DNA of 64,000 bases. Origin: Cloeon dipterum (Eukaryota; Arthropoda; Insecta; Ephemeroptera; Baetidae). The notes under the pieces are model-generated. The model was not told the origin of the DNA. It made no database searches and was given only the letters and a program-made list of their open reading frames with translations. A program made the translations under genes and the position numbers. Each line of letters opens with the position of its first letter. Position 1 is the first letter of the stretch. Of the stretch, positions 10,050-63,842 are shown one piece after another. Where the stretch lies: the NCBI RefSeq assembly GCF_949628265.1, contig NC_088789.1, positions 4,580,886 to 4,644,885 on the forward strand, in the 5' to 3' direction.

Positions 10050-10556
10050 ATGCTTTGCAAGGTGGTGATTGTGATTTTCGTGGCCGTCGGCCTCAACCTG
10101 ATGGCCGCCGCGGAGCACCTCGTCCCGATCGGCCACAACCTGATCAACTTAAGCCCCCATCAGGGACAGTACCACTTGAAGCAACAGGTGAACGAAAGCA
10201 AGCCCAACCCCGAGGATTGTCTGTGGACCGAGGTGAACGGCACCAGCCTCGACGAGAGCGTCTTCCTGCCGGTTAACGCCACAACGCTGGACGACGAGGA
10301 CTACTGCAACCTGATCATCTCGAACTTCAGCGCCGAAGACGATAGGAAGTTTATCATGCTCACATACCGCGAGATAAAGTACCTTCTCTTGATCTTTGAT
10401 GAGAGTGTCCATTCCGATTTCAATGCCAAGATGTTACTCCTGTTGAGTGCCTTGCTGGGCGTCATCACCGGCATAGTCAGCTCCATGGCCTGCTATATCT
10501 ACTGCAGGAGGAGCAACAGTTATGCACACGCAAAACTGTTGATGATGCCTTCGTAA
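10050..10556 (+). CDS. Orphan type I single-pass membrane protein, 168 aa
   Basis: I do not recognise this protein. The N-terminus is a signal peptide (hydrophobic core VVIVIFVAVGLNLMAAA, residues 5-21). The predicted ectodomain of about 105 residues is acidic, with N-glycosylation sequons NES, NGT, NAT and NFS and few cysteines. One membrane segment follows (about residues 127-149, LLLLSALLGVITGIVSS), then a short cytoplasmic tail starting CRRSN. The gene is intronless, and its GC-rich, codon-biased sequence contrasts with the AT-rich surroundings. A canonical AATAAA lies 80 bp downstream. The stop codon sits inside a perfect donor-like string (C|GTAAGT), so the real transcript could splice two codons before the stop and continue. 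This may be a small receptor accessory protein or a lineage-specific surface protein; the function is unknown. Confidence 0.65.
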   Translation: MLCKVVIVIFVAVGLNLMAAAEHLVPIGHNLINLSPHQGQYHLKQQVNESKPNPEDCLWTEVNGTSLDESVFLPVNATTLDDEDYCNLIISNFSAEDDRKFIMLTYREIKYLLLIFDESVHSDFNAKMLLLLSALLGVITGIVSSMACYIYCRRSNSYAHAKLLMMPS

Positions 10557-30846: not shown

Positions 30847-31866
30847 ATGATGTCGTTTGAGGTGACTGATTTTGGATTCCCTGGCGGGGCCAACGAAAAT
30901 CTGAACAATCAAGAAGACGGTGAAGTGCTGAGATTAAAAAACGACAATGCAGCTTTGCAGCAAAGAATCGCCATGATGGAACAGCAGTTGCTGAATTTGA
31001 ATTCGCAACAACGTGGTTCGCAACAGTCGACAGAAATTTCATTGAATGAGTCGATGCAACCATTGTTGATTGATATTGGAAATAATGCTGCTCAGTCAAC
31101 TATGATTCAGCCTTCTCATTGTTTCAAAATGAACTACAAGCCACCAACATTCATTCCGAGCAATCCTGAGATCTTCTTCGCTCTTTTGGAAAACCAATTT
31201 AATTAATTAATTTATCCACCGCTTCAAGATGCGTACAAAACTCTGAAAGTTCAAATCCTGAAGAATTTCTCCCCTACTGTTGGACAAACCGTTCAGCAGT
31301 TTTTGAAGGGTGAAAGTATTCGAGCTAAGGAATTGCCAACTGCATTTCTGGCTCGATTGAGGAGCATGTGCTCTAAACTTAACCTACCGAACGTGTCGGA
31401 TGCATTGCTCAAGGGCATTTTCTTGAAGGGTTTGCCCTCTGATGCCCAAAGCAAAATTTACCATCTAGAAAACCTTGATGAAGCTGCTACCATGCTGGAC
31501 AGCGCCCGTGAATGGTCTTTGATGGGACATGAGTTGTCGGTTCATGCGATTGCGAAGACCGCTCCAGTCGAGAAGGAATCGGACATAACGAACGTGCTCA
31601 AGGAACTGCAGAAGAGCAACGCGCTGATAATGGAGGAGCTGATAGAGCTTAGAAGATCAAGGAATCGGTCTCCCACACCCCGTGGTACAGATCGAGAAAG
31701 AAGACGATCATCTTCGAGGTCGCGCCAGCACAAAAATGGTGTCTGCTGGTATCATTACAGATTTGGCGACAGGGCTTTTCAATGCAACTCCCCGTGCTTG
31801 CTGGAGAATCATCCCTTGGCCACCCCTCCTGAGATTGAGTCGACAAACGCCAAGGGCAAGCAGTAA
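30847..31866 (+). pseudogene. gag: Retrotransposon gag, interrupted by one stop codon
   Basis: Nucleocapsid/capsid polyprotein. Frame 1 is open from the ATG at 30847 to the TAA at 31864 except for a single in-frame TAA at 31204-31206. The frame is otherwise continuous and protein-like on both sides. The N-terminal part holds a short coiled-coil-like region and the motif YKPPTFIPSNPEIFFALLE typical of gypsy Gag starts. The C-terminal part is Arg/Ser-rich, followed by a knuckle CWYHYRFGDRAFQCNSPC with spacing C-x2-H-x9-C-x3-C. The stop falls in a repetitive AATTAATTAATTT string, so a small deletion or slippage could also be involved. The copy could not make full-length Gag without readthrough. 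Confidence 0.85.
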
Positions 31867-34800
31867 TTGCGGCCGCTGTTTGCCCACCTTCATCAGGTCG
31901 CCTATTCATCCCTGACAAGACTTCAGAACAGGTTTACCTAATTGACACCGGGTCCGATGTTAGCGTTTTCCCGTCATCCTATTTGCGCGGTACTAAATTA
32001 ATTCCATCAACAATTTCTCTCTCTGCGGCAAACGATACGCCGATTAGAACATTCGGATTCGTTGAAAAAACTGTCAGTTTGGGACTAAAAAGGGATTTCA
32101 GATGGTCATTTCTCGTTGCCGAGATTTCAGATCCCATCATTGGGGCTGATTTTTTAACACACTTTGACCTGTTAGTAGATTTGAAGCAGAAAAAACTGAT
32201 CGATAAATTGACCAATGTGGCTACCAGCAGTTTTAGCAGTCTGATTAATTCTAACACACCCAGTGTGCGGGTGATTGAACAAAACCACTCGTATTTCCAT
32301 TTGATACAAAAATTCCCAGATCTCTTTTCTGCTGACAACAAACGGCGTCACATCAAACACAATTTTGTGCACGAGATTGAGACAGTTCCAAATTTGGTAG
32401 TGAAAAATAGATTTCGGCGATTAGATCCAGTCAAGCAAGCTTTTGCACACAAAGAGTTCCTTAGGATGTTAGAAAGTGGGGAAGCGCGCCGATCGTCGTC
32501 TAGTATGTCATCTGCATTGCACATGGTGCCTAAAAAGAACTCGGGTCAATGGAGATGTTGCGGAGATTATCGAGCACTGAATGCGGGAACAGTCCCAAAT
32601 AACTACCCAATGCGTTCCATCCAGGATTTTACCCATAATTTGGCGGGATGTAAAATATTTTCTGCTCTAGATTTGCCCCAAGCGTATCACTTTATCCCAG
32701 TGCATCCAGATCATATTTACAAGACCGCTATTACCACGCCTTTTGGACTCTTTGAATTTCCTTTCATGCCTTTTGGCCTCAAAAATGCTTCTCAGTCATT
32801 TCAATCATTCATTGATTCGCTGATTGGAGACTTGGATTTTGTCTACGTGTATATAGATGATATTCTCATTGCATCCAAAAATGAAGAAGATCATCTATTG
32901 CACGTGGAAACTGTCCTTAAAAAGCTTGACGAAGCAGGTTTGAGGTTAAATGTGCAGAAATGCAAATTTGGCGTGCAGGAGATTGATTTTCTCGGCGTTC
33001 ATATTTCAGCTGACGGCATCTCCGCAAAGAAGGAAAGAGTGCAAGCTATAGTTGATTTCCCGATTCCAAAGACGGTGGGAGAATTGCGTTCATACTTGGG
33101 CACGATTAATTTTTACCATCGTTTCTTGCCTCACATTGCCGAGATTTTAGCACCTCTGACAGCACTTCTTTCAGGACCAAAACAGTCTAAAAAAGACAAA
33201 CTAAAATGGACAAATGAACACCAGAAAGCTTTTGAAAAAAGCAAAGAGTTGCTTGTTTCGTCCACTTTGCTTGCTCATCCGTTACCAGGTGCAAAATTGT
33301 CGCTCGTTACTGATGCGTCAAATTTAGCAATTGGTGGCGTACTGCAGCAGCAAGTGGAGGAAGACTGGCAGCCCTTGGCATTTTTCAGTAGAAAATTGTC
33401 AAAAACCGAGCAAAAGTACTCCACTTACGATCGCGAATTGTTAGCGATCAATGACGCGGTTAAAAAATTCAGGCATCATCTCGAGGGCCGAAATTTCACT
33501 ATTCTGACTGACCATCTACCGTTGACTTTTGCTTTCACCAAAAATAGACAAGACTGCACCCCGCGACAATGCAATCATTTGGAGCGTATAAGCCAGTATT
33601 CTACCGACATTCAATTTATCCGGGGAAATTGCAATATTGTCGCGGACACAATGTCGAGACTAGCAGCGATCACAGCTAGATTCCCACTTCTGGAATTGGC
33701 GCAAGCTCAAGTAAGTGACGCAGAACTTGCTCTTGCACGCAAGGGGAAGTCTGCATTACAACTTCTTGATTACCCTCTGCCAAATTCAGATTTGAGAGTT
33801 TGGTGTGATTGCACCAATGGAAAAATTAGACCATTCGTCACTTCACAATTTAGGAAACAGGCGTTTGATTTGGTGCACGGACTAAGCCATCCTGGTATTA
33901 AAACCACTGTGAGAATGATAACTAAAAAATTTGTGTGGCCAGGAATGAAGAAAGACTGTACAGAGTGGTCAAAAGCGTGTCTTGCTTGCCAAACGTCAAA
34001 GATCCACGTGCACAATCGCACACCATTACAAAGTTTTCCCCTGCCTGAACACAGATTCTCATCTTTGCATGTGGACTTGGTCACTTTGCCATATTCAGAT
34101 GGTTTTAAATATCTCTTGACAGTCATTGACAGGTACACCCGGTGGCCTGAGGCAATTCCGTTAACCGACATTACTGCCGAGACCGTTTCTCGAGCATTTT
34201 ATGAAAATTGGATTTGCCGTTTCGGTTGTCCTCTGACTGTGGTATGTGACCAAGGTAGACAATTCATTTCTGATCTTTTTGAAAAACTGGCCGAACAGAT
34301 GGGATTTAAATTAGATTTCACAACTGCTTATCATCCACAGTGTAATGGCATGGTGGAGCGCTTGCATCGCACGCTTAAAGCAGCGCTCATGTGCCACAAA
34401 GGGCAATGGACAGCCGCCTTGTCAACCGTTTTGCTAGGATTGCGAACTGTGTTAAAGGAGGATTTGAGGTGCAGCACAGCAGAGTTGTTATACGGCGAAC
34501 AATTAAAATTGCCGGGTGAATTTTTCGTTAAATCCGAGAATGAAATGCCGCAACATGAGTTGTTAATTAAATTGCGCGCGATCATTGAAAAATTACGTCC
34601 GACTCCTGCTTCACACCATTCAAATCACCTCAAAACATTTGTTCATCCTGATATGGCTACTGCTTCACACTGTTTTGTGCGTACTGATGCGGTCAGAAAA
34701 TCATTGCAGCCTCCATACACTGGTCCTTTCCCGATAGTAGAAAGAGGACCCAAGTTTTTCAAGTTAGAAATCAAAGGCCAGCACAAAAATGTCAGTGTAG

Positions 34801-34949
34801 ACCGTCTGAAACCAGCTTTTATTTTAGCCACAGAGTCTGTCTCTTCAATAGAAGTAGTTAAAAGCAAAGTGGTGGAAGAGCAGACCGATCAAACTGAAAC
34901 TGTCGAGAAAACTGCAAAGTCGTGCAGAAAAGTAAGATTTGCAATTTGA
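31839..34949 (+). CDS. pol: Retrotransposon pol polyprotein (PR-RT-RH-IN)
   Basis: The frame opens at 31839, overlaps the end of gag by 28 nt in the -1 frame, and runs to a stop at 34947-34949 without interruption (about 1036 codons). Domains in order: aspartic protease [12 protein letters not shown] (31938 on), with GADF flap region; reverse transcriptase with [11 protein letters not shown] and the catalytic YIDD (about 32850); RNase H with [19 protein letters not shown] and LTDHLPL; integrase zinc finger HGLSHPG…CLACQTSK; integrase core with Asp in LHVDLV, Asp in VVCDQGRQF and Glu in GMVERLHR; and a C-terminal GPY/F-like segment ([18 protein letters not shown]). No chromodomain is visible. 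All catalytic residues are present, so this copy could supply enzymes even though its gag is broken. A -1 ribosomal frameshift is the expected route of expression. Confidence 0.93.
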
Positions 34950-37832: not shown

Positions 37833-39516
37833 CTACGCGGTGGTCTTTTCCTTCAACGCAACAAGGCAGACGTTTTCAAGAGTCACGTTTTCTTTGACGT
37901 AATACATAAGTTCGGTGTCAAACCCTGACTTCATAAGATATGCAACCCTGCCCTGGTCTATTAAAAGTTTGCACTTTCGTCCAATCTCCTCGCGGATTTC
38001 CCTACTCAAATTGAGCCGGTCGTACCTGTCTTTGTGCGGATTGTCTTCTTGTGGATGCTGGGCAGGCTGCCTCTCTTCTGGCTGGCGACTCTTGCCTATT
38101 CCGCAAGTCGCCCAGCTGACCAACACGCACATCAGGGTAAAATCCTGAGAAGATAGACCAACGTTCTGCAAAAAACAAACATGAATTTTTTAATATACGC
38201 TTTGAACCTTCAATGAAGTTAGTCTCACCTTAAACAACTCTTTGCCTACAAAATGTCTCCACTCGCATCTGTGGTGGCAGCAGAGAGCCATCACAAGTCC
38301 CTCTTGCCGTGGAGAACTGCCAGATGAATCTGCATTTACAACGCACCTCAGAGCTAAATCTGAAAAATAAGATGAACAAATTAAAGTTCTCCCTCAAATT
38401 TAAGATCAATCTCGTTTACCTGTCGCCGCTCCACAGAGATGCTTGCTTATTGGGACGACATATCGGCAGCCCTCGCGGAAGTCAACTTTTTCCAGGCACA
38501 GGTCTCCAACGTTGGCCAGCACTCGGATGACCTCAGAATTGACCCCTTCCGTCACAAGCTTATTCTCACTTTTGTGTCTATAGGTGGACACATCGACCAG
38601 GGCAAATGTGCAGTTACTTAAATTTTTGGCAGCATGGGCAAGCCAAAAGGTAAATTTCCCTGTTAAATAATTGATCAGTGAAATGTAACCAACAAATTAA
38701 ATGAAAATTTGTTATACCTTTCCCAGCACCTAATTCAACAAAGCAGGTGTCATTCTTGATCAAATTTTTGCTCTCCATGATTCCAATTAATGACGAATTT
38801 TGCTTTAGATGCTTCAAAGCAGGTGCACCGAGGTCAGGCCTTTGAATTTCTTCAGCAAGAGCCGGATGCTCTAAAATTTGCTCCTTGATTTTGATGTTGA
38901 TTTCTGGACAGTAAAATAACCCATTGCAAAAAATATATAGGTTGTAATAATGATAAAAAATTATACCTTCATAGATTTTTTCAACTCGAGAAATAAGATC
39001 TAGAAGAGCCTCATCACTAACATCATTCAAATGAACTCTTGGAACTTCATCTTCAACAGGTCCGGCATTTATCGATGGATTTATGTATACTGGCCTTGTT
39101 TCTGAAGGACGAGAGTTGCATCTTGCCATGTGTTTCTTCAGGTGGCTTTTGTAGCAAGAGCTGAACAAAGAAATTAAATATTTTTTGTAATACATACATA
39201 CATATTTTTTCGCAGGATATCTTTTGTACATTAATAAAATATAAACTTACTGATTGCTGTCAAAAGGGCAAGGGACCCTCAATCTCTCCTCGCCCGATTG
39301 AATTTCGATACAAGTCTCTGCACTTGACTGTGTATTGGAAATGAAAATTTAGTTTTTTAATTCAAAACGTTAACACAAATTTGAACAAACCTTTACGCTG
39401 TCATCTTTCATGTGGTCAATGTGTTCACCACAGTATTTTTCACCAATTCTTACTGTCATTCTACAAAGTCTCTTCTTCTTCAAAACGAAAAATTGGCACT
39501 GAACTCGCTCTGTCAT
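37833..39516 (-). CDS. TRMT13: tRNA:m4X modification enzyme TRM13 homologue, 428 aa
   Basis: SAM-dependent 2'-O-methyltransferase that modifies nucleotide 4 of tRNA-Pro, tRNA-Gly and tRNA-His. Seven exons: 39516-39391, 39327-39251, 39160-38967, 38903-38718, 38659-38420, 38359-38229, 38165-37833, together 429 codons. The N-terminal CCCH finger is visible at C7, C18, C29, H32. A CHHC (U11-48K-type) finger follows with C62, H68, H78, C82, its codons split by an intron. The SAM motif is FVELGAGKGKF (187-197). The conserved TRM13 blocks SKHLCGAATDLALRC and LVMALCCHHRCEWRHFVGKE are intact. The C-terminal exon is less conserved, with a charged insert. The family is often 450-480 aa, so this copy is slightly short. 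An upstream in-frame ATG (39552) would add 12 residues. The region ahead of the start is AT-rich and may hold the promoter. Confidence 0.93.
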
Positions 39517-40488: not shown

Positions 40489-42878
40489 ATGTTGTCCTTG
40501 CAGCAGGGTGCCGTGTCTTCGGACGTGCTCGCAGCCGCGCAGCTCGAGTTGGGGCACAACCCAAATGCGTTGGCTCTGCGCCGTCCGTTCGATCCTGTGG
40601 CACATGAGTTGGACGCAAACTTCCGACTCACTCGTTTTGCTGATCTCAAAGGATGAGGGTGCAAGGTCCCTCAGGAGATTCTTATGAAACTCCTAGAGGG
40701 ACTGCAGCAAGACGAGCACAGTGCCCAGGACAATGACCACGCCCATTTCATGCTGATGGCCAGCCCCAGGATCGGTACGTTCGCCGTCGAAGGACACCCA
40801 CCTGCCCCTGCGGTTGTTGTCATGCAGCGCGGAGGGGAAGGCGGCACTGTCCGAACCGCAGTGCGGTCCATCCGCAGGGTGGATTTTTACTTTTTATGCG
40901 TTGTGGGTGCTCTTAGGATTTGAGCATTTTACTTCGGGGTCGAGGACCCCGTCCAAGGGGCCAGGGACGCCTTTGCATTGTTTCAAATAGCTGCGAGGCC
41001 TGTCTGTTTTTAGAGCCTCCTTGTTTCGAGAGACTGAATTTATGGGATATCTCGGGGCTTTATCTTTTCTTAAAATGCTACTTGTAACTTGCCATTCATC
41101 ATTCTGTTGAAACATTTAAACTCCTGCAGAGTAAAAACAACGTGATTAGATTTTGGACTTAATCTCTTAATGATTAACTACAAAAATATTTAAAATCGAA
41201 TTAATAACTTTTTCGAATTGAACATATATAGGCGACCCATCAAAGAACTCGGCATGAGAAATTCTTTGATTTACAATATATTTTACAATTTTTAATGACT
41301 TAATTTTCTAGAAGTATCATAAGACCAATAAAAATAGTTATTATACGGAATCTTCCATCATGTGATCCTAAAATAATGATCTTTTGAGAAAACAGGAATT
41401 GGCATGGATGCATCTGTGACCCCACTAAGACATGGAGGACTTTCCTTGGTTCAGTCCACCGACTTTTTCTACCCAATTGTTGATGACCCTTACATGATGG
41501 GTAAGAAGTTGCTTCTCAAAATTGCAATAATCGCTAAGTTTTTGAACTGCAGGCAAAATTGCTTGTGCTAACACCCTTAGTGACCTGTACGCCATGGGAG
41601 TGACCGAGTGCGACAACATGCTGATGCTCCTCGGCGTTTCCACAAAAATGGCAGAGAAGGAGCGGGATGTTGTCGTTCCCTTGATGATGCGGGGCTTCAA
41701 GGATTCTGCTCTAGAGGCTGGTACAAGTGTCACCGGCGGCCAGACCGTCCTCAACCCTTGGTGCACAATTGGCGGCGTTGCCACCACTGTTTGTCAGCCC
41801 AACGAATACATTGTGTAAGTTTGCTGTGTGCCGCCCAACAAAATTAAACTTTCTATATTTATTTTCTCTAGACCAGACAATGCGGTCGTTGGAGACGTCT
41901 TGGTGCTGACCAAACCCCTTGGAACCCAAGTTGCTGTTAGTGGTCACACGTGGCTGGACCAGGCAGACCGGTGGAACAGGATCAAGCTTGTTGTGTCAGA
42001 GGATGATATGAGGAAGGCTTATCAACGTGCCACAGACTCGATGGCGAGGCTTAACAGAATTGGTAATTGCTTCAAAATTGTCTTTCCTCTTTATTTTAAG
42101 ACCTAGGTTTGAATCTCGAATTTTAGGCCAGTGAATTTTAAAAGTGAAGTTTGAAAATATTTGACGGCATTTAGGGCCGTAGATCTATTTTTTCCCAAGC
42201 ACTATTTAAATTTTTTTACTCTTTCTGGCAGCTGGCGCAGCTTAAGTTAGAGTGACAACGACTGGCGCCTTATTACTTAACCTAACATTAGCTGCCTGGC
42301 TGAGACCTCCATGTTTTATTAATATTTATTTATCATATCATCCCTTCTTGTAAAATCCTGTTTTCAACTAATTATTTGACCAATGTGATTAATAAAATTT
42401 TCTGCGGATGCCTGTATTTTATTGAAGTAAAAAAAAACTAATAAAGATTTGTATTGTATCTGCTTCATTTTAAATTTCAGCCGCCCGATTGATGCACAAA
42501 TACAATGCACATGGTGCCACCGATGTGACTGGCTTCGGCCTGCTCGGACACGCGCAGAACCTGGCGCGGCACCAGAAGAATGAGGTCTCCTTCGTAATCC
42601 ACAACCTGCCCGTGATCGCCAAAATGGCAGCCGTTGCTAAAGCGTGTGGCAACATGTTCCAACTCTTGCAAGGTCACTCGCCAGAGACCTCTGGAGGTCT
42701 GCTCATCTGCCTACCGAGAGAGCAAGCCGCCGCTTACTGCAAGGACATCGAGAAACAAGAGGGTTACCAGGCGTGGATCATCGGCATCGTGGAGAAGGGC
42801 TCGCGCACAGCGCGCATCATAGACAAGCCGAGAGTCATCGAAGTGCCAGCTAAGGAGAAGGACGGCGAGCTCTGGTAG
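40489..42878 (+). CDS. SEPHS: Selenophosphate synthetase with in-frame UGA at the catalytic site, 413 codons
   Basis: Makes selenophosphate from selenide and ATP for selenocysteine (SPS2), or has a selenium-independent role (SPS1). Exons: 40489-40774, 41396-41500, 41553-41814, 41872-42062, 42481-42878, together 414 codons if the TGA at 40654-40656 (codon 56) is read through. The frame around it reads [25 protein letters not shown], exactly where SPS2 proteins have Sec and where other SPS1 proteins carry Thr, Arg or Cys. Downstream blocks are family-perfect: [84 protein letters not shown] and [20 protein letters not shown]. Sequence flavour (GVSTKM, ARLNR, KACGNMF) is SPS1-like. If UGA is not read, ATG 40684 could start a truncated protein. 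The in-frame UGA is therefore not evidence of a pseudogene: everything else is intact. Confidence 0.95.
40660..40706 (+). promoter_or_regulatory. Stem-loop directly downstream of the UGA (readthrough/Sec-redefinition element candidate)
   Basis: Starting three bases after the UGA: TGCA (40660-40663) pairs with TGCA (40703-40706), GTCCCTC (40666-40672) with GAGGGAC (40696-40702), and AGGAG (40673-40677) with CTCCT (40690-40694). That gives 16 Watson-Crick pairs with an AG bulge, one bulged A (40695) and a 12-nt loop. Position and form match the selenocysteine redefinition elements of SPS2 and the readthrough hairpin described for insect SPS1-UGA genes. Pairing is seen; function is inferred. Confidence 0.75.
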
Positions 42879-43147
42879 AGCGAGCGATTCCCAGGTGAAA
42901 GGCAGCCGGCCCCGAACTTGAAGGCACACAGCTCGGGGACGCCTCCCTTTGCCTCATTCACTCACTCTTCTGCGTTATTCCTCGATTGGTTGTGAGCCAT
43001 CGGTGACACAAGCAACCTAACATTACATTTATTTTTATTTAACGAGAGTTATATAGATTCAGAAATTCCTTTTCACTGCTTGAGCTATTGGTTTTTTAAG
43101 AAAACTTGGAAAATAATATGTCTGGATCACTATTACATCTGAGAATC

Positions 43148-43153
43148 AATAAA
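43148..43153 (+). terminator. Polyadenylation signal AATAAA of selenophosphate synthetase
   Basis: 270 bp after the stop codon, in AGAATCAATAAATTC. It bounds the 3' UTR in which a SECIS element would have to lie if this site is used. Confidence 0.5.
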
Positions 43154-46100
43154 TTCTGGCGGTTTTAAGAAGAAAGCTTATGTTTTATTTCAACTGCACC
43201 TGATATATATCAAATAAAACGAAAAATTGGAAGGTGAGAAATTTAATCACATTTCGCGAATAGGTTCAGAATATGGGGGAGGAAATTTTTCATAACTTCC
43301 TACCAAGTTTGAAGTTCCGTGAGCTGTGCATTTGTGTTACGGTTATAAAAATTCTTGGATATATACGTGCATTAAAGGAACGCGGTCATCAGAATCAGCA
43401 ACTTTGAATGATTCAATACTCTGTGTCTTTTACATCATCACGGTTAATCATAACTGGAGGGAAACACCAGGAATTTAAATTGCGTCGCAACAAAATTTCC
43501 ATCCACAGTTCTTTGCGTAACAATTATTATATAAATTTTTGGTCCAGGAGGTTAAAAGCCACAGCTGCTGTTTTCACAGTTGAGTAATTGAAGCCAGCCG
43601 CCGCAGCGAAACCGCCAAAGTGAAAATTTTCGGGAGAGAAACGGGAGCTACGCGCTTGCTGGAATTTGCTCTTCCTGAGCTTTAAAACAAAGTATACTGG
43701 AAAGTATCATGTGCATGGAAAGTTTTCACATCAACATCTATTAAATAGGTATTTTAAATGTCTAGTTTTGACTTCAGATTGCAGAATTAATTCATGAATT
43801 ACAATTTTAGAGTTTGTTGAAAATTTCCAGACATTAATGCCGAGCAGGACATTTGTGCAGAAATATTCAATAATAAAAAGCTCACTATACACCGGTAACA
43901 CCGGGGAAGCTGCTTTTGATTTCTAAATTCGAAAAAGGAGTCGTAAATATTTGGCATTATGCAACTGGCACGAGTTTGATGAAATTTCTGTGCAAAATTT
44001 CAGGTGCTTTTAGTGTGATTTTTTCAATATGATTTTAAAGAGCCTTGAATCATCTCTTGTTATTTATAATGTTCCATTAAAATAATAATTAGTGGCAAGT
44101 GATTTACTCTGACCCCATTTCTTGTGCTCATATTGTATAACATTTCATCTTCAGCTGAGTTTGCCTTATTATAGTCATATTTTACAACACTCGCGTGGTT
44201 TCACTCTTCTGCTTTCCTCAAACAGGAAACCCCTAAAAGTTTCACAAGTCATTGATGTAAACTTCGAAATACATAAAATAACCTTCAGCAACACTCAACC
44301 CGATTCGAAAAGGTATATATGTGTCACTATAAACACTTTAATTAAAATTTGGTTTGATTGAGCGTTTCCACGGTTATTTTGAGCAATTTCTAGCAAATCA
44401 TATGTAATATATTTAGCGTGTGCGCCACTTGGAAGACTTTGTTTGAGCGTAAAGCAAGCGAAAATCGAATAAAATGAAGATGTGCGCCCCGCAATTCCGT
44501 AAGGGTATGTTTTTACGCGCGCAGTCACTTTGAATAATCGAGAGATGTTTGCTAGTCCAGCGCACGTTTGCAATAAATATTAAAGCGAGCATTTGAATGC
44601 TGATCTACACATTTTCCCTTGAATAACTCCATTTAAAATCAATTTACACGGTGTTGCTTGGATGGTAATCTCCAGCTCTGGGGCGGACGGAGCGAGCTCT
44701 AGGCTGACATTTATTTCGGTATCAGCCTGTGTGCACTTGAGATGACAAGCAAACAAGGTGGAAAGTTCTCCTGATGCTCTCGTGTCAATCAAAAATAAAG
44801 TTGTTGCCTTCAAAGCGTTTTTATCGGCCTCCTATACACATGCTCTATCTTCCTCTCTGCTCGTGTCGCAGATAAATTTCCGAAAACAATTTGCGCGTAT
44901 GAGCGTTGCGTGCGCACAATGTTTTCCTGGTTTGCCTGTGCAAAAATTCCCCGTGAGTCATCAGTTGTGATGCCAATAACATAGGAAAATACATTGAAAT
45001 GCCACATGACTTGCAGAGGTGAATAAATTGCTGTTTGAATTCGACTCAAAAATGGTTTTTGGGTTGAATATTAATTAAATCTTTCATATTTTTTGTGTCT
45101 AATTTGATTTCCTTGTGTGCCATTATTCCTTTCTATTTTCTGATCCCAGAATTTAAATTTTTTACAGGCAACTTAAATTTGTTTGTTTACCCTAAGATTA
45201 AAATTAATTTTTTCCGTTCAGATTTGTTCGAGTAATTTTAGCACTGGAATTGAAAGGTGATTTGGCTCTGGAAATGAACAGAAATTTGTCACTTAATATG
45301 TTTTTTGTTGTTGTTTTCTCTTCAGCGTGCGCTATGATGACTGCCGGTATATTTAAAGGATTTTTAAGATAGTTCCCGTGCGTTCATTTATTTTTCATTT
45401 TGACGTAGTTCGTCTCCGTGACAGATTTCGAATTTGAGAGTGTCATCAGCATTAGCGCCGAGTTTGAGCCATTTATGCTTGTCAATCACTTCCAAGCGCG
45501 CCGAAAAATATTATGAGCAAAATCAATTATTTTGCTGTGCCCTGCCGCACCGTGCGCGAATTTCGGGCTGCCACTGCTCTTATGTGACTGCTTCGAATGC
45601 TGGATTACGCTGGATTAAGGGAAACAACAGTCCTGCTGGGTGTTGTCGGAAAGTCCGTGGAAAGGAAAAGCAGGCTCTGCCTACACTTATGCGTTTGCAT
45701 CTCTGAGAACTCTCTTTTTGTTTTTCTTCAAATCTTACCGCGGACGTGCATCTCTCATGGTTTCATAATTTATTTATTTTGTGCTTGCTATTTTGCACGT
45801 CTGCCAGTCATATTAATTAGATTTGCTGGTGAAATGAACGCAAACAATTTTAATTAAGAGCAGTGAGCGATTGCTCGTTTTGTATATGTAAGAGAGCGTT
45901 GATGAAATCAATTTTCTTAATTAAAGCAAGGAAAGGATGTTTCAGCAAGTCAAGCTCCACTTTGGGGAGAAGGGTAATCAAGCTCAACACATAAACGATT
46001 ATTCAACTATTTGTTTTTGGTTTTATGACCCAAATCAAAAGTAAACCAGACGAAAACTCCCAGAACGTTACTTAACGAACAAATTTATTGACTTGCGCTC

Positions 46101-46682
46101 ATTATTTCTCAGCGTCTTGATTGCTTATTCAGATGCCCTTTTCCTTTAGTCCCTTTGTTTGTTTTAACTCCGATGCGTGCGCTAGTACGGAGCTGCAATA
46201 ACATTATTATTGATTAATTCCAAATGAAACTCAATTAGTACTTATGAAGCCTTGCTGGGAATTGATTGGCTTTTTAATTTTAGCATTAAATCGAATCGAA
46301 ACATTTTTACTGTTCAGTACATACACTTTCATTAAATTAATTGTAGCCTGAATAAGAGAGAACATATAACTAATAAGAGCAGGAACCTGCAATTAAAAAA
46401 AATGCGCAAAATTCAATGATATAAAAAATGTTGCCGCATTGCAACGTGAGCTACGGACTAATCAATGAAACATTGATTTTTTTGTAATTAGCAGACGATG
46501 GACAGAAAAATACAGATATTTGTCGTGTAACCAGATATGTAATGCTCTCTGATTCCACGTCGAAAAGACATAGTGTGTGGAAGCATCAATTTTAAAACCT
46601 TATGTAGCCTCCGCAGCTTTTTCTCTGGCATTGGATTTATTTGCTCTTTGTTCAGCGTTTTCCTATGGAATTCTTATTACAA

Positions 46683-47060
46683 TCAGACCTGCGGCTCATA
46701 TTCGGACAAGTCAGGAGTTGTTAATAAGCGATAGCTTTGAGCTTTTGTCTTGATGTATTCTCTGACCACGTATTTATCTTTGATTTTCCATTCACAGCTC
46801 TTTGGTTCCAAATCAGGCATGATCCCGATTTTAAAATGCTGATCTTGTAAAAATGACATCTTTTTAATTTTTACATTTATATTTAAATCTTGTACTAAAT
46901 AAATCACTAATATCATTGAATGTATTTTATATGTGGAAGTAAATTTTACCTTCCCAATCCCCCAATATACACAATGTCGTAAGGTGGTCACAGACTCAAA
47001 TGCTGACCGAGCGGCGCGTCGATTTCTGGGCCGCAGCCCATTATTCGAAAAAAATAACAT
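46683..47060 (-). CDS. Possible small gene of unknown function
   Basis: I do not recognise it. The frame could be one reading or two exons: a donor (AAG|GTAAAA near 46951) precedes a pyrimidine-poor AT stretch, and the rest ends …YRLLTTPDLSEYEPQV. The C-terminal 57 residues (from MSFLQDQHFKIG) look more protein-like than most chance frames here. No signal peptide or known motif. Confidence 0.2.
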   Translation of the reverse strand: MLFFSNNGLRPRNRRAARSAFESVTTLRHCVYWGIGKVKFTSTYKIHSMILVIYLVQDLNINVKIKKMSFLQDQHFKIGIMPDLEPKSCEWKIKDKYVVREYIKTKAQSYRLLTTPDLSEYEPQV

Positions 47061-47710
47061 TTCTCAAAAAACTTACGTATGACCTGACTATAATACTGCT
47101 GACTATTACTACTAAAATAATGTAAAGGACATTTTAGGAGTTTTTATTCATCACTCAAGACTCAAGTTTTTTTTTAGAACCTCGGATCTGCTCAGCACTT
47201 CCCAAGCTGCTGAGCTCGCGGAATCCCGATGTTACCTAAAACGTTTAAGGCATTAAGCAATAACTCGTATCTAGAATATCAGATAAAGCAACTTAACAAA
47301 TGGGTCGTAGCAGAGTTGTCTGAATATAATCTTTCAAATTTTTACTACCAAGAGCTCTTCGTCCGATTTTACTCTCGTGCACACAGCATACACCTTTATC
47401 GCAAATATTTGTATATTTTAAAGTCATTTATGAGTCCCAAAGCTTTCTCAATAGAACCAAAAAATTCTCAAAGGCAGAATTTTTCGGTCTAATGCAATAA
47501 ATTTGGTCTAATAAGTGACAATTATTTGATCTTTTAAATCTCCAAAAGTCTATAGTTTAGTTTTCGGCATATAATGCCACACATTCGACCTCATTTGCTC
47601 GTCACACTGCAGCACGTCGAACACATGAGTTTTTATGAATTGGTGGAAACCCAACAGAGACAATTTATTTCAAACGGTGTTAATGGGGGACCGCGTGGCG
47701 GAGGCGTTCC

Positions 47711-62280: not shown

Positions 62281-63842
62281 TCAAACGGCGGCCTGCTCGC
62301 TCTCGCGTTGCCGCTTACGCTCGATCAGCGGGATGAGGCCCCACATGGCTGCCCCCACGAGCAGTACGATGCCCAGGGTGGTGAAGATGAGTGAGTAGTT
62401 GCCGAGCCTCTCCAGAGCGTAGCCGCAGACAGGCGGCCCAAGCAGCTGGAGCACGCCGTTTAAGAAGAGGGAGATTCCGAACGAGGACGCCAGTCGCTCG
62501 GCACCCAGCATGTCAGCGAAAAGCACGGCCGTCACACCGACGTAGGTGCCTGAGCCGAAGCCGAAGATGGCGCACGCCACGGCCAGGTACACGTAGCCGG
62601 CGGACGCGAACAGCGGCAGCAGAGCCAGGATCAGGCCCGAAAGGAACAGGCCGCCGATGTAGTAGTATTTGCGCGGCATGAAGTGCAGGTCCGACAGCGC
62701 AGAGCCGCCGATCCGGCCCACCAAGTCCAGGGCGGCCACCAGCGAGAGTAGGAGGGATGCCGTCTCCTTGTCGCAGCCCAGGCTGATCGCGTACGCGGGC
62801 AGCAGGATGATGAAGTTCGTGTACCCGATCGCGTTTGTTGAGTTTGACAGGAGTATGACCTGGAATTACAAAATGACAATTTTTATTTTAAAACTCAGAT
62901 AAATATGATGTTTGAAACATATATGCAGGTTGGTTTTTAGGATTTTTCTGATCTTTCTATGATATTTTTTTAGTTAAATTTGCAGATGTAACATAAAAGC
63001 TGTTTTACATCAAGCAAAGTATAAGGGCTGCTAAATTTAGACTTGTTTACTCTCAAAAGCACTTAAATTTAGTAGCCAGTTATGACAGTTTTTCTAGATT
63101 TAAATATGCGATCTCACACCATATTATTTGCAGCTTAACATTCCTAAATACTAAAATATCACATGAAATTCTATATGTTACAAAAAGTGCGTTTTATTTA
63201 TTTATTTTAATTTTAAGAACCCTCATTATTTTGAAGAATATCATTGTAAAGAGGAAATATTTTGGCATCTGCATGATTTTAGGAATGGTGACAAGAAATC
63301 GAATATTTTAACTTTTAAGAATCATCAATTTCAATTAAAATCCAGACTATATTCCACTAATTGGAACATTATCAAAAACTTATCCACCAAATTATGTTTC
63401 CTTCCTGAGAGCTAATTTTACTTCTTAACACTAATAGCCACCCTTGATATTTTGAAATTCGAATACTAATAAAAGAGGTGTGAGTAATCGTTTTTTTTAA
63501 ATTAGGGTTTCCACAAGAAAAAACCTGCATGCGTGTAATTGAAATTCGCCGCGTAAATAGATTCGGGGTGAGCTCTACACTTTACTTACCAAATAGAGGG
63601 AATCTTTCAAAAGGGAAAGGTCCAGCAACTTGGTTGTCGAGTCTGCAGAGCCTTCCTTGTCATCATCAATCGGTGGTTTTTCCGTCTTCTTATTTTTCTT
63701 GCGTGAAAAACAGCTAAAACAGTTGCCGAAAGAGTCCCAGCAGGATTTGGTCACTGATTTCAACGTCAGGGTGGAGGCGAACATTTCATTATCACGAGGA
63801 TTCTGCTGCAGGGCGGCTAAAGTGCTTCCATGGTGAACTGTA
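62281..63842 (-). CDS. Monocarboxylate-transporter-like MFS protein (SLC16), C-terminal half
   Basis: Plasma-membrane carrier of the MCT family; substrate cannot be told from this half. Two exons seen: about 63842-63590 and 62859-62281, joined in phase 0. The first encodes the variable cytoplasmic loop between membrane segments 6 and 7, charged and Lys-rich (SRKKNKKTEKPPIDDD). The second encodes segments 7-12 with MCT-like blocks: GYTNFIILLPAYAISLG, AALDLVGRIGGSALSDL (segment 8), VACAIFGFGSGTYVGVTAVL, LASSFGISLFLNGVLQLLGP and a short charged tail ERKRQRESEQAAV. GC-rich codons (third-position C/G) contrast with neighbours. The acceptor of the first exon is ambiguous by 5 nt (63837 or 63842). 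The N-terminal half, including the family signature in segment 1, is beyond the right edge. Confidence 0.8.
62860..63589 (-). other. Intron of the MFS transporter gene
   Basis: 730 bp AT-rich intron with GTAAGT donor and CAG acceptor on the minus strand. Nothing else recognised. Confidence 0.7.

Follow-up and report, generated by a model that had tools for sequence, protein, structure and literature searches.

A selenophosphate synthetase gene with an in-frame UGA and a predicted three-hairpin RNA element in the mayfly Cloeon dipterum

UGA-bearing selenophosphate synthetase genes and the mayfly locus

The closest described relatives of the gene reported here are the insect genes known as SPS1-UGA, in which a selenophosphate synthetase (SPS) carries an in-frame UGA together with a 'hymenopteran readthrough element' (HRE) (Mariotti et al., 2015; PMC4561486). 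Genes of this kind have already been described from bees, wasps, some bugs and lice, and they are named SPS1-rt in PMC5330540 and SEPHS1-rt in PMC7376646; an earlier proposal of non-Sec readthrough for the honeybee gene is found in PMC2500217. Two further systems offer themselves for comparison, namely SPS2-Sec, where the UGA is accompanied by a Sec redefinition element (SRE) and a SECIS, and SPS1-Arg, which has an Arg codon at the same site. The gene analysed here lies in a window of 64,000 nucleotides of the Cloeon dipterum genome (C4:4580886-4644885), where it occupies 40489-42878 on the + strand and is divided into five exons:

40489-40774, + strand: SPS exon 1, coding part from the ATG, with the UGA and the whole RNA element inside; donor GT at 40775
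40654-40656, + strand: in-frame TGA, codon 56 from the ATG at 40489, at the Sec/Cys/Arg/Thr position of SPS proteins
40657-40662, + strand: GGGTGC hexamer directly 3' of the TGA, in agreement with the hexanucleotide GGG-UG[C/U] described for readthrough (Mariotti et al., 2015; PMC4561486)
41396-41500, + strand: SPS exon 2, AG/GT borders, frame kept
41553-41814, + strand: SPS exon 3, spliced frame, selD family match
41872-42062, + strand: SPS exon 4, spliced frame, selD family match
42481-42878, + strand: SPS exon 5 with the terminal TAG, spliced frame, selD family match
42879-43153, + strand: probable 3' UTR up to the AATAAA at 43148, with a putative 3' end and without an Rfam SECIS

The TGA is the sole in-frame stop before the terminal TAG, the inner exon borders are GT/AG and the coding sequence comprises 414 codons including the terminal stop. 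Coding conservation extends over both flanks of the UGA and the SPS protein matches reach the C-terminal end; in the alignment with human SPS1 (3fd5; residues 28-404, 619 bits) the UGA stands opposite a Thr. The initial annotation, which had placed a TGA at codon 56 of an otherwise perfect frame, was therefore right on this point, given the LKG-U-GCKVPQE flanks and the intact five-exon frame. Its identification of an SPS gene with an in-frame UGA and a selected RNA structure is supported as well, and the GGGTGC hexamer, which it did not mention, has to be added to it.

As in the insect SPS1-UGA genes, the UGA is located exactly at the Sec position, the frame is conserved on both sides and the GGG-UG[C/U] hexanucleotide follows. 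The host is different, since the gene belongs here to a mayfly whereas PMC4561486 names Hymenoptera, Rhodnius and Pediculus. The comparison with SPS2-Sec gives a mixed result: the UGA codon, a local stem-loop and Sec machinery in the genome are common to both, whereas the hexamer is reported to be absent from insect SPS2 (Mariotti et al., 2015; PMC4561486) and no convincing SECIS was found at the mayfly gene. The SPS1-Arg proteins among the best 120 homologues, which include those of flies, mosquitoes, beetles, leafhoppers and Timema, share 72-89% identity with the mayfly protein and differ from it by an Arg codon in place of the UGA.

The residues found at this site in other SPS proteins were counted among the best 120 homologues of a protein search in which 7995 of the 7997 scored candidates passed E<=0.001. 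The motif K-[GA]-x-[GS]-C-K-[VIL]-P was matched with Arg at the site in 68 of these 120, Leu in six, Trp in two and Cys in one, while 31 begin downstream of the site and 12 have no motif match. Among these 12, five have Arg and an altered neighbour (P0030, P0053, P0061, P0064, P0078), P0087 has Cys, three skip the site (P0026, P0039, P0085), two shift the frame across it (P0076, P0086) and the residue of P0090 is unclear. The Trp of P0020 and P0052 is one base away from UGA. In Timema, one SPS protein (P0003) has Arg, and a different one (P0039) leaves out precisely the stretch around the site, as would a gene model built to avoid an in-frame stop; stick insects may possess an Arg copy alongside a UGA copy. 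The hymenopteran models P0026, P0076 and P0086 (Apis cerana, Cotesia and Trachymyrmex) jump the UGA region or change frame there, and databases therefore misstate these proteins.

The window also contains other coding features. TRM13 tRNA methyltransferase exons (37833-39246, - strand) are found upstream of SPS, on the opposite strand, and an exon of a major facilitator superfamily transporter is found at 62281-62865 (- strand). A single-frame orphan protein of 168 residues (10050-10556), whose sole database match is a Cloeon dipterum protein with 85% identity over the full length, gave no Pfam family when searched without its first Met. Two long open frames of 219 and 1036 residues occupy 31207-34949 and, judging by their motifs, presumably encode gag and pol of an LTR retroelement; no Pfam match was obtained with the 219-residue frame.

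The RNA element around the UGA

Folding of the sequence around the UGA predicts a compact element in which three hairpins are held within a closing helix:

40593-40730, + strand: whole RNA element, three hairpins within closing helix P1 (40593-40603/40721-40730)
40605-40630, + strand: first hairpin, 9 pairs, pair probabilities 0.75-1.0
40631-40716, + strand: helix P2, 12 pairs (40631-40642/40705-40716), enclosing the UGA hairpin and the long hairpin
40644-40658, + strand: middle hairpin, 5 pairs, with the UGA in the 3' arm beside the loop and three UGA pairs of probability 0.83-0.95
40665-40703, + strand: long hairpin, 16 pairs with two small interruptions (arms 40665-40681/40686-40703)

This three-hairpin fold fits the published wording for the HRE, in a comparison made by description and from one sequence. 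The long hairpin corresponds to the 16-pair hairpin with two small bulges of the initial annotation, which is real but turned out to be one arm of the 40593-40730 element and not the whole of it. The annotation had also placed its beginning three bases after the TGA. When the 57 bases from the UGA (40654-40710) are folded alone (-29.6 kcal/mol, z -4.86, none of 200 shuffles as stable), the pairing does start at 40660, three bases after the TGA, if one isolated pair is set aside; within the full element, however, the long hairpin starts eight bases 3' of the TGA.

The whole element (40592-40730 folded) reaches -71.9 kcal/mol with a z of -8.43, a stability that none of 200 shuffles attained, and it is the most stable among 368 windows of 141 nt along the SPS coding sequence. 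Synonymous versions of 40591-40731 that keep the protein were generated according to the codon usage of the gene, according to a flat usage and by permutation of the gene's own codons; in each of the three tests 0 of 1500 were as stable (z -6.29, -7.54 and -6.35). The codon-choice test is weaker for the long hairpin alone than for the whole element. When the TGA and the two codons after it were held constant, synonymous versions as stable as the hairpin numbered 3 of 5000 under the codon usage of the gene and 0 of 5000 under flat usage; when the TGA alone was held constant, they numbered 24 and 1 of 5000, respectively. Because synonymous versions almost never fold as stably, these energy tests on one sequence, as distinct from covariation, support the idea that the codon choice around the UGA has been selected for the RNA fold, as the initial annotation had suspected.

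These results also bear on the possibility that translation truly ends at the TGA, or that the site is decaying or has been assembled wrongly, the fold being incidental. This appears very improbable, since it would leave 357 in-frame codons after the TGA, across five exons and with an SPS match to the end, as well as a fold that beats every one of its synonymous controls; further, the same UGA site has been published in other insects (Mariotti et al., 2015; PMC4561486).

Selenium use by the genome and the search for a SECIS

The search of the genome for Sec machinery that the initial annotation had proposed covered 190,111,064 bases in 10 contigs and recovered tRNA-Sec (75.3 bits, anticodon TCA), SecS (five exon matches) and domain 4 of eEFSec in an open frame (105.6 bits). 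Three further tRNA-Sec matches fell below the cut-off, and one of them corresponds to an ordinary tRNA. A thioredoxin reductase gene at C2:9213876-9216014, whose last intron was placed by splice signals, has the terminus NFTTMDVSKSSGISVASKSC-UGA-Gly-stop (Cys-UGA-Gly) and is followed about 80 bases after the stop by a SECIS (L039:2290-2353) with the AUGA, the AAA and the GA in place, which scores 26.8 bits (E 0.053), under the Rfam cut-off of 35. The presence of tRNA-Sec, SecS, eEFSec and a Sec-type thioredoxin reductase with its SECIS indicates that this mayfly still uses selenium and selenocysteine. PMC5330540 reports a nearly perfect correlation of tRNA-Sec with eEFSec and selenoproteins across the eukaryotes that it analysed. 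Honeybee and bumblebees, in contrast, are reported to be without tRNA-Sec, eEFSec and pstk; with both tRNA-Sec and eEFSec in its genome, the mayfly does not share the selenoproteinless status of the hymenopteran type. The expectation that the decoding of the SPS UGA would tell whether this insect uses selenium does not hold, as the genome shows Sec use independently.

Another reductase-like gene (C5:1791520-1794309) has the terminus ...QACCS-stop and is thus a Cys form, so that Sec and Cys reductases coexist in this genome; a third, weaker thioredoxin reductase match lies at C5:30598244-30598931. The two exon matches of GPx (PF00255) belong to one locus of the Cys form (NVASKCG), the reported TGA being located in an upstream intron, and the single Rdx match (PF10262) is a SelW-like Cys protein whose CxxC was read by joining two exons by eye. 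The family search of the genome for SelK (PF10961) did not find it: its three sub-threshold matches, with frames that by eye are not SelK-like, were taken as chance. The Cys-form reductase, the GPx locus, the SelW-like protein and the result for SelK together argue against a large selenoproteome.

The SECIS search that had been suggested for the 3' UTR of the SPS gene was run with Rfam and with scanners, and in 42879-47550 it gave weak candidates only, none of them convincing. Rfam at E<=10 found no SECIS in 42800-44600, in 42850-43480 or in the 4.7 kb downstream of SPS (42879-47550). The SECIS of the reductase served as positive control and was found by a comparable Rfam scan. Among the scanners, the first two had no positive control and only the third recovers the reductase SECIS, not as the top hit of its locus; at the threshold that does so, the custom scanner found nothing in 42861-47600. 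Looser settings gave, within 42879-47550, two candidates of -10.2 kcal/mol or lower, against about 3.5 predicted from the window rate of 0.74 per kb, and another looser version gave 15 candidates in 4.74 kb, where 15.7 were expected from the window rate. The candidates at 44475-44533 (-13.4 kcal/mol) and 43621-43678 (-10.2 kcal/mol) lie beyond the polyadenylation-like signals at 43148, 43213 and 43371 and have a helix that does not meet the core; they were rejected by shape, which is a judgement and not a test. A further weak candidate (-12.2, looser settings) lies inside the spliced SPS coding sequence. The Rfam SECIS scan of the whole genome gave nothing, but neither did its control, and with the reductase SECIS below the Rfam cut-off this result proves nothing. 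The SPS gene thus seems to have no convincing SECIS within 4.7 kb downstream, which leaves some room for a weak or unusual one. In this respect it again resembles the insect SPS1-UGA genes, which likewise lack a SECIS in the 3' UTR, the weak candidates here not exceeding the window's own rate.

Decoding of the UGA and the search for a second SPS gene

On four features, namely the UGA position in a conserved frame, the hexamer, the predicted fold and the lack of a convincing SECIS, the gene of the window is probably a mayfly SPS1-UGA with an HRE-like element, and non-Sec readthrough is the likeliest decoding of its UGA, which fits better than Sec decoding because no convincing SECIS was found. 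On the basis of the predicted fold, readthrough is inferred to be driven by the element and, for the same lack of a convincing SECIS, the residue at codon 56 would mostly not be Sec. Termination at codon 56, where the ribosome would meet the UGA within a strongly folded RNA, would be disfavoured by the GGGUGC hexamer together with the three-hairpin element, and a near-cognate tRNA would be accepted there, with Arg, Trp and Cys as candidate residues. The product would be an SPS1 protein of 413 residues, and selenoproteins would be made by the separate, normal SECIS route seen in one thioredoxin reductase.

This interpretation has to be weighed against the result of the search for a second SPS gene. 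Only the window gene was found in the whole genome with a 220-residue part of its own protein (E<=0.001), with the selD family (E<=0.001) and with a mite SPS that has Cys (E<=10). A scan of the whole genome for the motif U-G-C-K-x-P gave the window gene and one rejected match, and the reversed control pattern also gave one match; the rejected one (SCL-U-GCKIP, L024) lies antisense in an apparent intron of a transporter-like gene, without SPS context, and was attributed to chance. These searches proceed exon by exon, so that exon-split or unassembled genes can be missed, and the assembly may be incomplete. That genes can be missed is suggested by SelT, a member of the Rdx family that did not appear in the Rdx search. 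SPS2 is reported in every insect genome coding for selenoproteins (Mariotti et al., 2015; PMC4561486), including those of Rhodnius and Pediculus, which have SPS1-UGA and SPS2, whereas no SPS2 was found here. As no second SPS was found, a non-Sec product would leave the selenophosphate for the reductase unexplained: either SPS2 has been missed, or a single SPS gene does both jobs. The hexamer and the absence of a convincing SECIS speak for SPS1-UGA, the failure to find SPS2 for one gene with a dual role. No decision comes from the protein sequence, because unduplicated SPS2 proteins are said to be more like SPS1 than duplicated SPS2 (Mariotti et al., 2015; PMC4561486).

One form of such a dual gene would be an unduplicated SPS2 in which the UGA is Sec by means of a SECIS that the scans missed, with one gene serving both for selenophosphate synthesis and in the place of SPS1, a dual role that has been proposed in animals whose SPS never duplicated. 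The Sec machinery, the Sec-type reductase, the failure of protein, family and motif searches to find another SPS gene and the reported resemblance of such proteins to SPS1 speak for it. It is nevertheless rather unlikely, as the methods that find the reductase SECIS found none in the 4.7 kb downstream and looser scans gave weak candidates only. Another form would dispense with the SECIS altogether: readthrough would be mixed, a fraction with Cys at codon 56 would make selenophosphate and the remainder would do the SPS1 job. This would fit a Sec user with a single SECIS-less SPS gene and the residues, Cys, Trp or Arg, that can be inserted when a UGA is read through. We know of no precedent for mixed readthrough giving two SPS functions, and SPS2 may just have been missed or be missing from the assembly, which makes this form decidedly improbable. 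In the more general version, a Sec-using animal would have a single SPS gene whose UGA, without a SECIS, yields by readthrough the SPS1 protein and a Cys- or Sec-bearing fraction that makes selenophosphate, which is conceivable if still on the unlikely side.

The reading preferred here, an SPS1-UGA gene decoded by non-Sec readthrough, would, on the evidence of the published main texts, extend this type of gene to a further insect order, although supplementary figures such as S9 of PMC5330540 may include a mayfly. A literature search on Ephemeroptera or mayflies and selenoproteins gave, by title and the start of the abstract, nothing on mayfly selenoprotein genes, and the main texts of two Cloeon dipterum genomics papers (PMC7250882, PMC11491810) contain no word beginning with selen. 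Because the mayfly also has a Sec-type reductase with a SECIS, the same animal would recode UGA in two ways, with and without a SECIS. Mayflies belong to the earliest-branching winged insects, and the presence in them of an SPS1-UGA gene with a full HRE supports the view, already proposed, that the copy with a UGA and without a SECIS dates back to about the origin of insects. Should SPS2 prove to be truly missing, the gene would be a direct test of whether one codon, by readthrough, can serve two functions; a single SECIS-less SPS gene would, if true, break the rule that every insect with selenoproteins also has SPS2, and would represent a present-day form of the dual-function ancestor that has been proposed for metazoan SPS.
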